A stretch of 7,630 nucleotides of DNA from the NCBI GenBank assembly GCA_024278345.1, contig JAJRTK010000262.1, forward strand, positions 1 to 7,630, written 5' to 3'. Origin of the DNA: a bacterium (GTDB lineage: Bacteria > CSSED10-310 > JAJRTK01). The position numbers and the translations under genes were made by a program. Numbering within the stretch: the first letter of the stretch is position 1; each line of letters opens with the position of its first letter. This document shows, in pieces, positions 2 through 7,226 of this stretch. The notes under the pieces were generated by a model. It did no database searches. It was not told where the DNA came from and saw only the letters and a list, made by a program, of their open reading frames with translations.

Positions 2-1516
2 AGGAGATCCCAGGAGGTCGGGTCAGAGCAAACCCCGGACCAAAAGAGGGCCGACGGTGGAGGATCCCAGCAGCACGGGCAACAGAGCATCGAATTCTCC
101 CCCCACAAGTCGAGCTCCGATGACGGCATCGGTCATCGGTGGTCGGCGGAGCCGACTCTTCCTTCGGTGGGCACCGGCCACCCCCCAAATAGCGCGCAGC
201 ACGCAAAGATGTGGGTCCAGGGAGCGCGCTCCCTGGCGAGGTCCAGGAGCAGCGCTCCTGGCGGAGATATGGAGGCGGAGCCTCCGCCGGGGGCTGGGGC
301 CGAAATTCACTGGGTGGTCGGATCCGAGCGACAGCGAGAGCTGCCGATGGCACCACCGAGGACCGAGGCCCCCGATGACGATACGAGCAAGGAGCCCGGT
401 TCCCGAGGCGGAAAACTCCTTGGAGCAACCTTGGCCTTCCTGTTTTCCTTTCTTCTGTACTTGCCTTTTCACCTGTCGTTCCAGTCCCAGCAAGCCCAGG
501 GAGTTGGCTTGGCGTGGCGCCGCACGGGGCTCGGAAACTTCTTCGTCATCCACGGGCTCTTTTTCTTCGTTCTTGTCACCGAGCTCCTTTCCAGGGCGGG
601 CTATCTCAATCCAAAACTCCCCTGGCCCAGAAAAGAAAGAGCCCTCATGCTGCTCATCTTGGTCTTCGTCCCCATGGGACTTCTGCTGGACAGCTCCCTG
701 GTCGTCCTCTTGGCGGGAATGCTGGTACTGCTGGCAGGATCATGGTGGCGATCCGCCGGGGAGCCTCAGCCGGAACAGGTGTTCGTCGATCTCCTCACCC
801 TGTCGATACTGGGCCTCCTTCTTGGCTGCGAGCTTTTTTATATCAAGGACTTTTACGGCGGAAACCTCCACCGGTTGAACACCGTCTTTAAGCTCTACTA
901 CCAGGCGTGGCTCCTTCTGGCACCGGTGACGGCCTGGAGCCTGTACCGGCTGGCGGCACGGGAAAAGGGTCGAGGAGGCGCAGGCCCCTGGAAGGCTTTC
1001 TTCGCCATCCTGTTGGTGGCGGCCTTGGTCTACCCGGTGCTGGGGACCAGGGCGCGCTACTTCCGCCAGGAACCGGCGGGCACTCTCTATGGCCGGGACC
1101 ATCTCATCAAATACCATCCCGACGAACATGCGGCCATGCTCTGGCTGGAAGAAAATGCACCCATGGGCTCCCGCCTCCTGGAGGTCCCGGGCCCGCCCTA
1201 CCAGTACTATGGAAGGTTTTCAGCCAACACGGGAATTCCCACGGTCCTTGGATGGGTCCAGCACGAGGCGTTCTGGCGAGACAACACCTACGTGATCCCC
1301 AAAGCCCGAGAGAAAGAGGTGAAAGAGTTCTACCGAGCGCCCCGCTGGTCACCGAAGCTCCGGGAATTCCTCCGCCGCTATTCCATCGACTACATCATCG
1401 TGGGAGAACTAGAACGCAAGGAAGTCTCGGCGGCGGGATTGGCAAAGCTCAACGAATTGCCCCTCCTCTTCGAGAAGGGGGACGTCAAGATCTACTCCGC
1501 GGCCGTTCCCGAATGA
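2..1516 (+). CDS. DUF2298 ('YYY' family) multi-pass membrane protein, C-terminal part
   Basis: The frame is open from the window edge to a TGA at 1514-1516, so the gene begins upstream. From about 407 onward it matches my knowledge of DUF2298 (PF10060; TIGR03662, Chlor_Arch_YYY). A membrane helix leads into LPFHLSFQSQ, several more helices follow (about 415-770), then the hallmark LHRLNTVFKLYYQAWLLL (near 865-920), a last helix (about 990-1045) and a soluble tail with YQYYGRFS, TGIPTVLGW, HEAFWR and IDYIIVGELERK. The upstream family motifs (the WDxPT helix) are outside the window. These proteins resemble GT-C glycosyltransferases; the reaction is not established, so an envelope glycosylation role is inference. 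Bases 2-406 encode a Gly/Ser/Pro/Arg-rich hydrophilic stretch with no family similarity that I recognise. It sits just before the first visible helix and is full of palindromes, so it is probably an expanded loop. The GTG at 167 is an internal codon, not a likely start. The last 32 bases overlap the convergent dehydratase gene. Confidence 0.88.
   Translation, partial: RRSQEVGSEQTPDQKRADGGGSQQHGQQSIEFSPHKSSSDDGIGHRWSAEPTLPSVGTGHPPNSAQHAKMWVQGARSLARSRSSAPGGDMEAEPPPGAGAEIHWVVGSERQRELPMAPPRTEAPDDDTSKEPGSRGGKLLGATLAFLFSFLLYLPFHLSFQSQQAQGVGLAWRRTGLGNFFVIHGLFFFVLVTELLSRAGYLNPKLPWPRKERALMLLILVFVPMGLLLDSSLVVLLAGMLVLLAGSWWRSAGEPQPEQVFVDLLTLSILGLLLGCELFYIKDFYGGNLHRLNTVFKLYYQAWLLLAPVTAWSLYRLAAREKGRGGAGPWKAFFAILLVAALVYPVLGTRARYFRQEPAGTLYGRDHLIKYHPDEHAAMLWLEENAPMGSRLLEVPGPPYQYYGRFSANTGIPTVLGWVQHEAFWRDNTYVIPKAREKEVKEFYRAPRWSPKLREFLRRYSIDYIIVGELERKEVSAAGLAKLNELPLLFEKGDVKIYSAAVPE
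217..288. repeat. Cluster of three palindromes inside the DUF2298 gene
   Basis: Three inverted repeats follow one another within 72 bases. The first, 217-236, is a perfect palindrome, CCAGGGAGCG joined directly to its reverse complement. The second, 243-261, has arms CCAGGAGC and GCTCCTGG around a 3-base spacer. The third, 274-288, has arms GGCGGAG and CTCCGCC around one base. The first two share the CCAGG-GAGC and GCTC-CCTGG core, so they look like diverged copies of one unit. The surrounding sequence has more: 117-139 (arms CCGATGAC and GTCATCGG) and 142-156 (arms GTCGGC and GCCGAC). In the gene's frame they encode a polar linker and add no stop. This resembles palindromic repeat families known to enter genes in frame, such as Rickettsia palindromic elements. 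Family membership is inference. Confidence 0.75.
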
Positions 1517-3464
1517 GGTTTTCCACGCCACCCGCAACGATCAGCTCTTGGGCCACCGGGGCCAAGGGAGCGAATGGCCATTCCTTCCCACAATACCGCA
1601 AGCGGGAGGCGGCAAAATCGATCTCCAGCAGGCCTGGCATGGGGTTGGTCAATGCGGTTAGGCCATGAGTGGCGGCTTCCCGCTCCAGGCGATCCACGAG
1701 GCCCGGACACTCCAGGACGATAAACCCGTTATTGAAGGCGTTCCGCTTATAGGTTTGTGAAAAGGATCGGGCCACCACCAGGCGGATTCCCCGAAACTTC
1801 AGCGCCGTGGCCGCCTGTTCCCGGGAGGAACCACTGCCAAAGCTCCTGCCGGAGACCAGAATATCCCCTTCCCTGGCGATCTCCTGGAACTTGGGATCGT
1901 AGTTCAACATGGCCACGGCGCCCATCTCTTCGGGGGGCAGCTCTTTGTAGGTCCAGTCCTTCCCATAGATCCCATCGGTGTCGAGGCTGTCTTTGGGAAG
2001 ATAGAGAATCCGGCCCACCACCCGTGTGGGGAAACCGGCTAGAATGGGGACAGGGTCATTCTCCACGCTGCTGGCGGGGCCAACGGTGCTTCCGGGTAAG
2101 AGAACGGCGGGCTCAACGTCTACCGGAAGATCCGGGTCCGTTGGACCACAGATGAAACCCGCGGCAGCGCTTGCCGCCACCACCAAAGGACTGGCCAAGT
2201 AGCATTCCGCCTCCCTGGACCCCATGCGCCCCCTGAAGTTCCGGTTCGTGGCGGAGATCCCTACCTGCCCCGGCTCCAACGTTCCACGGCCAAGGCCGAT
2301 GCAGGGGCCGCAGCCCGCGGGCAGAACGATGGCGCCAGCCTTCAAAAGCCTCTCCCAGGCCCCGAGTCGGACCGCCTCTTTTTCGATCTCCGACGAGGCC
2401 GCGGCCAAGTAGAACTCCACGCCCGGTGCCACGCGCTTTCCCTCCAAAACCTCGGCCGCTTGCACGATGTCCTCAAGGCGCCCGTTGACACAAGACAACA
2501 AGTAGGCCTTGTGGATGGGTACGCGCCTGGCCTGGATCGCCTCAAGGGGAACCAGGCAATCCACGGCGTTTGGGCCGGCCACGTGAGGGCGAATCTTTCC
2601 GAGATCCACCATCACGACATTTCCGTAGACCGCGTCAGGATCGGGTCTCAACTCATCCCAGAGCCCTTGAAACGAATCGACATCTTCCAAGGTCAGGCGC
2701 GGAACCGGATCGCCGCGCTCCGCCAAGAATCGCGCTCGCTCCCGCAAATAGGCGGCGGTCACCTCGTCGTAGGGAAAGACCCCCGCCAAGACGCCCCACT
2801 CGGTGGTCATGTTCGCGATGGTCATCCGTGGTTCCATGCCCAAATTCGCCAGGCCCGGCCCGTGGAACTCTACTGCATGGTTCAAGAACTCACCGCCCGA
2901 GAGTTTCCCAATGAGGGTCAAGATGAGATCCTTGGCTGTCACACCTGGCCGTAGAACCCCTTCGAAGACGACCTTGGAAACCACCGGAACCTGCCACCAG
3001 GTCTCACCGCTGGCCCAAAGCGCGGCAGCATCCGTCCGCACCACGGGCGTGCCCAAGGCCCCCAGAGCCCCATACAAGTTGGAATGGGAATCCGAGCCCA
3101 CCACCAGGGCCCCGGGACGGCAAAAGCCCTCCTCCATCATGATCTGGTGGCCGATGCCGCGACCTGCGGGAAAGAAGGCGATCCCCTGGCTGGCAGCAAA
3201 GGCCTCGATCCGGCTGTATTTCGCCAGGTTCGCGGTGCTACGGTTTTGCACGTCGTGGTCTAGGCAAAAGACGGGCTGGCTGGGGTCCAGGACCCGGGAG
3301 GCACCGATTCCCTGGAACTTCGTCAGAACCGGAGCCGTGTTGTCGTGGGTCATGACGTGGCGGGGCCGGATCCGGACGAAATCGCCGATCCCCACGGTCT
3401 GTCCCTGTTCCAGGCCAACGGCAAACCGCTGGACGATCTTTTCGACGGTCGTTTGACGCGGCAT
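1485..3464 (-). CDS. Homoaconitase-like (LYS4-type) aconitase-superfamily dehydratase
   Basis: This 659-residue protein holds all aconitase domains in one chain: the three [4Fe-4S] domains (about 1-440) and the swivel domain (about 470-650). Visible motifs are THDNT (39-43), SDSH (124-127), the first cluster Cys in SCVNGR (C325), the other two in GCGPCIG (C385, C388), NRNFRGRMG (408-415) and swivel GSGSSREQA (543-551) with the catalytic Ser region. Length and signature segments such as HDVQNRS, RTDAAALWASGETWWQ, TIANMTTEWG and TDGIYGKDWTY look like fungal homoaconitase Lys4 rather than TCA-cycle AcnA/AcnB or two-subunit LeuCD. The family reaction is homocitrate to homoisocitrate via homoaconitate in the cytosol, the alpha-aminoadipate route to lysine. 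No partner gene (homocitrate synthase, homoisocitrate dehydrogenase) is in the window, so the substrate is inferred; citrate or another 2-alkylmalate is possible. The ATG at 3464 has AGGGAAG nine bases before it. The cluster loop has Val where SCTN is usual. Confidence 0.85.
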   Translation of the reverse strand: MPRQTTVEKIVQRFAVGLEQGQTVGIGDFVRIRPRHVMTHDNTAPVLTKFQGIGASRVLDPSQPVFCLDHDVQNRSTANLAKYSRIEAFAASQGIAFFPAGRGIGHQIMMEEGFCRPGALVVGSDSHSNLYGALGALGTPVVRTDAAALWASGETWWQVPVVSKVVFEGVLRPGVTAKDLILTLIGKLSGGEFLNHAVEFHGPGLANLGMEPRMTIANMTTEWGVLAGVFPYDEVTAAYLRERARFLAERGDPVPRLTLEDVDSFQGLWDELRPDPDAVYGNVVMVDLGKIRPHVAGPNAVDCLVPLEAIQARRVPIHKAYLLSCVNGRLEDIVQAAEVLEGKRVAPGVEFYLAAASSEIEKEAVRLGAWERLLKAGAIVLPAGCGPCIGLGRGTLEPGQVGISATNRNFRGRMGSREAECYLASPLVVAASAAAGFICGPTDPDLPVDVEPAVLLPGSTVGPASSVENDPVPILAGFPTRVVGRILYLPKDSLDTDGIYGKDWTYKELPPEEMGAVAMLNYDPKFQEIAREGDILVSGRSFGSGSSREQAATALKFRGIRLVVARSFSQTYKRNAFNNGFIVLECPGLVDRLEREAATHGLTALTNPMPGLLEIDFAASRLRYCGKEWPFAPLAPVAQELIVAGGVENLIRERPRSRS

Positions 3465-7098: not shown

Positions 7099-7177
7099 CT
7101 CTGAGTTCCCTTGGAGCCCTGACAGAAGCCGCAAACGGTCGGCCTCTGCCTTCCCTTGGAGCCCTGACAGAGGCCGC
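7099..7177. repeat. Imperfect 45-base-period tandem duplication between rpsT and pgpA
   Basis: Two copies of a 34-base segment (7099-7132 and 7144-7177) are spaced 45 bases apart and differ at three positions. The 27-base cores at 7106-7132 and 7151-7177, beginning TTCCCTTGGAGCCCTGACAG, differ by a single A/G. Base pairing is also possible between CGGCCTCTG (7140-7148) and CAGAGGCCG (7168-7176), so the second copy can close a hairpin with a 19-base loop. There are only two copies and no coding sequence, so this is a local duplication, not a CRISPR array. Confidence 0.75.
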
Positions 7178-7226
7178 GAGCCGACGGCATCGCCTTGCGG
7201 TACCCGGATAGGGGAAAGGCCAAAAC

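Follow-up and report, generated by a model that had tools for sequence, protein, structure and literature searches.

A high-copy, hairpin-rich MITE-like element as the very likely source of an in-frame segment in a DUF2298 gene of the phylum CSSED10-310

The window analysed here is a stretch of 7,630 nucleotides (contig C186) from the draft genome of an uncultured bacterium of the phylum CSSED10-310; the 6.06-Mb draft comprises 550 contigs and is 88% complete. The window begins with an interrupted DUF2298 gene, whose Pfam match to DUF2298 sets in at residue 135, near base 404, and whose TIGR03662 match runs on to about 1498. An earlier note on this DNA, made from the sequence alone, had placed the onset of conservation at about base 407, close to the start of the profile match, and had read the palindrome-rich DNA in front of it as a repeat that entered the gene without breaking the frame. 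The locus raises the question of what this segment is, and whether it recurs elsewhere in the genome. The features of the region are as follows.

2 to 1516, plus strand: open frame of the interrupted DUF2298 gene, with the 5' end cut by the contig end
2 to 124, plus strand: polar segment 5' of the element; open frame, contiguity deduced from the target duplication, weak coding score
117 to 125, no strand: left copy of the target-site duplication, CCGATGACG
125 to 370, plus strand: MITE-like palindromic element of 246 bp, open in the ORF frame; copies genome-wide with common ends and duplications
125 to 143, plus strand: left terminal inverted repeat GGCATCGGTCATCGGTGGT, read from the sequence; this family of ends is common genome-wide
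217 to 236, no strand: internal hairpin 1, CCAGGGAGCGCGCTCCCTGG, a perfect 20-nt palindrome that recurs in the genome
243 to 261, no strand: internal hairpin 2, CCAGGAGCagCGCTCCTGG, found exactly in 13 genome places
271 to 288, no strand: internal hairpin 3, GGAGGCGGAGCCTCCGCC
352 to 370, minus strand: right terminal inverted repeat ACCACCGAGGACCGAGGCC, read from the sequence
372 to 380, no strand: right copy of the target-site duplication, CCGATGACG
404 to 919, plus strand: C-terminal part of DUF2298 (Pfam profile 324-488), a profile match

The target duplication of the window copy is perfect over 9 bp, and the left terminal repeat matches the reverse complement of the right end at 17 of 19 bases. 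Since the elements begin with G and finish with C, the ends are ambiguous by one base, and reading the 9-bp duplication as CCGATGACG shifts the boundaries to 126-371. With either pair of boundaries the element is shorter than the 117-406 proposed in the earlier note, and the inverted repeat listed there at 117-139 proved to be a chance overlap of the target duplication and the element end. The palindromes further inside are real, those at 217-236, 243-261 and 271-288 being exact or nearly so, and the folding of 125-370 beats that of dinucleotide shuffles (z -3.1). These short hairpins were not picked up by a generic inverted-repeat search over bases 1-700; a looser listing of elements, which contains many overlapping pairings, was used for the boundaries of the window copy only. 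The net insertion in the DUF2298 gene amounts to 255 bp, or exactly 85 codons free of stops in the host frame, and the visible frame at 2-1516 remains open, in agreement with the earlier claim that the frame was kept. If the interrupted frame is translated, peptides from GIGHRWSAEPTLPSVGTGHPPNSAQHAK would be expected, and the empty site before insertion is expected to read ...TCCGATGACGATACG...

Similar DNA is dispersed over the whole genome. Bases 200-300 of the window recur at about 40 listed places, mostly with 87-99% identity, and the terminal-repeat pattern gave 366 genome matches versus 3 for a reversed-pattern control, a recurrence well above chance. In 853 kb of unselected contigs the element was found at 79 places, which extrapolates to approximately 560 per genome (about 90 copies per Mb). 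The family elements are roughly 200-270 bp long, have the ends GGCCTCGGTCAT...ATGACCGAGGCC, enclose three or four GC-rich hairpins and contain no transposase gene. Three subtypes were distinguished.

Subtype A: GGCCTCGGTCATGGTACCGGCCAC, 201 bp long, with 24-bp terminal inverted repeats
Subtype B: GGCCTCGTCCATCGTTTCGGCCAC, also with 24-bp terminal inverted repeats
Subtype C: an extra hairpin within the terminal repeat

Target duplications of 8-9 bp (with at most one mismatch) were found at 28 copies, one of which, on locus L091, is doubtful and was omitted from a later analysis; the common net insertion across copies is 209 bp. The unit recurs genome-wide with fixed ends and target duplications, which settles in the affirmative the recurrence raised in the earlier note, and the dispersed element transposes. 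Because it combines terminal inverted repeats, internal hairpins and 8-9 bp target duplications, the family is described here as MITE-like, and it is abundant without encoding a transposase itself. The element is absent from the 7 other genomes of the phylum that were compared, and an exact scan of genome contigs for the terminal repeat listed no other host among those it covered. Many contigs of the draft terminate inside subtype A copies, and the repeat accounts for part of its fragmentation.

The segment in the window is very likely a copy of this high-copy, non-autonomous, hairpin-rich family that transposed into the part of the DUF2298 gene coding for a polar loop. A trans-acting transposase would recognise the GGCC... 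ends and make a staggered cut in the target. Insertions would land widely, and purifying selection would purge the ones that disrupt needed genes; the few frame-keeping insertions in a tolerant loop, tail or spacer may survive as an added stretch of probably disordered peptide. The role of the hairpins presumably lies with the element rather than with the host protein. A transposase with matching ends was not found among the ISL3, IS256 and IS1595 families checked in the draft assembly: ISL3 is represented by a remnant with no such ends nearby, IS256 is absent, and the IS1595 copies start with GGCTCTATATG.

Most copies of the family are intergenic. Of the 41 testable copies, 5 have coding sequence to the left and to the right (one strand or either), as compared with 898 of 1500 random sites when a single strand is considered (p = 8e-10), and the net insertion length modulo 3 is 0, 1 and 2 in 9, 7 and 12 copies, respectively. 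With an insertion length unconstrained modulo 3 and a mostly intergenic placement, the family does not constitute a dedicated in-frame cassette. A fixed in-frame cassette had been considered from the lengths of 201 and 246 bp, both multiples of 3, and was dropped when the duplications gave a common net insertion of 209 bp.

About 1.1 Mb of sampled sequence, partly chosen for holding copies, was searched for in-frame cases, so that those given here are not a genome-wide count. A DUF2270 gene has a full copy in frame where it encodes a polar N-terminal region (perfect duplication CCACCGAGG, net insertion 276 bp), and a 73-bp fragment of the element is in frame in a TPR-containing membrane protein. 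The copies in the window and in the DUF2270 gene are read in the same phase along much of the element (RWSA[EK]PTLP[SA]VGTGHP, EAEPPPG), though not at the 3' end. The idea of one protected reading phase was dropped, the other phases being open nearly as often. In contig C5, a copy truncates an ISL3 transposase by a stop in the right end of the element, which ruled it out as a further in-frame case. Frame-breaking copies are also present in a transposase-like gene (C58) and a nuclease-like gene (C14), names that come from reading the translations and not from a database. Of the protein-coding repeat family envisaged earlier, the in-frame copies are real, but they are a minority in a family that is mostly intergenic and not tuned to codons in its length.

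The DUF2298 frame could also be the remnant of an earlier truncated or rearranged gene, with the element lying in relaxed or spacer-like DNA and its in-frame state meaningless for the protein. Indeed, the 88%-complete assembly lacks the N-terminal half of DUF2298, encoded by the gene's 5' half; yet the contig simply stops at base 1 of the window, so the frame upstream of it is out of sight. Bases 1-124 have a weak coding score, near zero, although the ORF frame is the best of the six, and 35 bases to the left of the element (window 79-113) match, at 89% identity, a seemingly non-coding part of contig C180 (14360-14394). Open frames of this kind are also not rare in GC-rich DNA, a given frame lacking stops in about 23% of shuffled elements. 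On the other side, the frame has a strong coding score from 521 onwards and is intact to its stop. The target duplication implies contiguity, and bases 1-124 therefore adjoined the C-terminal half of DUF2298 before the insertion. At the same point, six related proteins (five of the same phylum) have a variable polar loop of about 10-70 residues and lack any homologous segment, the absence from relatives by which the earlier note had proposed to recognise an insertion. With these points on both sides, we regard a gene remnant as rather unlikely. The polar segment at 2-124 is probably the native loop of the DUF2298 protein, and the pre-insertion loop can be reconstructed as ...SPHKSSSDDDTSKEPGSRGGKLLGATLAF. 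The 130-odd polar residues of the earlier note accordingly divide into about 50 that were once contiguous (bases 2-124 and 380-406) and 85 contributed by the insertion.

The polar loops of the relatives vary at this position, and one of them (genome G006, locus L063) is a very long acidic stretch, as might be expected if the segment were an ordinary native low-complexity loop with palindromes arisen by chance. This origin is hardly conceivable, however, for DNA whose identical type recurs, with defined ends, in unrelated genes and at intergenic sites. Palindromes of the REP/BIME type, mobilised by a Y1 (TnpA-REP) transposase, would share the high copy number, the GC-rich hairpins and the mostly intergenic placement. 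Target duplications and long terminal inverted repeats are not known as products of Y1 transposition, but the copies here carry both. REPs are extragenic palindromes of 20-40 bp (PMC3733652), whereas the elements here measure 200-270 bp, and a REP/BIME origin appears highly improbable.

As a transposed MITE-like copy, the segment can be compared with known systems. Prokaryotic MITEs such as Correia/NEMIS and ERIC/RU-1 (reviewed in PMC10969869 and PMC2229807) are likewise short and non-autonomous, with terminal inverted repeats, target duplications, high copy numbers, mostly intergenic positions and occasional in-frame gene fusions. The element described here differs from them in its new end sequence, its new host phylum, its 8-9 bp duplications and the modular arrangement of its three or four hairpins. 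Rickettsia palindromic elements (RPEs) and the protein-coding palindromes of Wolbachia also lengthen conserved proteins by an in-frame palindromic repeat, as seen here in the window, the DUF2270 gene and the TPR protein fragment, a likeness of placement and description in which no sequence relationship is claimed. RPEs are 105-146 bp long, and nearly half of 44 are located in genes (PMC10969869), whereas the present element is mostly intergenic, has clear target duplications and usually inserts a length that is not a multiple of three. The likeness to RPEs drawn in the earlier note is therefore apt for the in-frame principle and not for a literal RPE, the element being a MITE with terminal repeats and duplications. 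Because in-frame MITE fusions, RPEs notably, are already established (PMC10969869; PMC2229807), this kind of element is already known, while the repeat family itself and its host appear to be undescribed in the literature searched.

A second repeat family (around GGCGAGTGGCGCG..GCGGA..GAGCGACGGGAGCGGAACACAACCCAAGAA) was found in frame in three other genes.

L286, 1844-1915 (contig C66): copy in the LpxK gene, in frame between two conserved-domain parts
L270, 5044-5105 (contig C49): copy in the gene of a 1970-aa PMT-DUF2298-NHL protein, in frame within a loop
L132, 4204-4272 (contig C282): copy in a subtilase gene, in frame upstream of the peptidase domain

In bacteria with lipid A, LpxK is as a rule an essential enzyme; its Pfam matches on either side of the repeat cover profile positions 2-246 before it and 228-326 after it. 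The loop of the PMT-DUF2298 protein has more than 70 residues, versus roughly a dozen in four relatives. The motif GGGACCTATCAGATCCGGTTGACAA occurs together with an inverted copy on L013 (near 1640-1723) and L147 (about 1260-1430), and its repetition suggests a third dispersed element. The window also contains a short direct repeat, CCTTGGAGCCCTGACAGA, at 7108-7180 between the gene of ribosomal protein S20 and the next gene, and on the minus strand (1485-3464) it encodes a 659-aa protein that has the aconitase and aconitase C-terminal domains in a single chain.

Protein-coding palindromes were first described in intracellular bacteria. With a perfect target duplication and relatives that lack the segment, the DUF2298 insertion offers a clear case of a selfish repeat joining a reading frame outside such organisms. 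A broader and tentative reading, which we consider doubtful, would make this lineage a counterpart of Rickettsia outside intracellular bacteria, in which at least two high-copy families have lengthened many conserved proteins genome-wide (here DUF2298, DUF2270, LpxK, PMT-DUF2298, the TPR membrane protein and the subtilase) and selfish DNA is a main source of new protein segments. Several such insertions, including that in LpxK, provide a test of how well proteins tolerate repeat-encoded loops.
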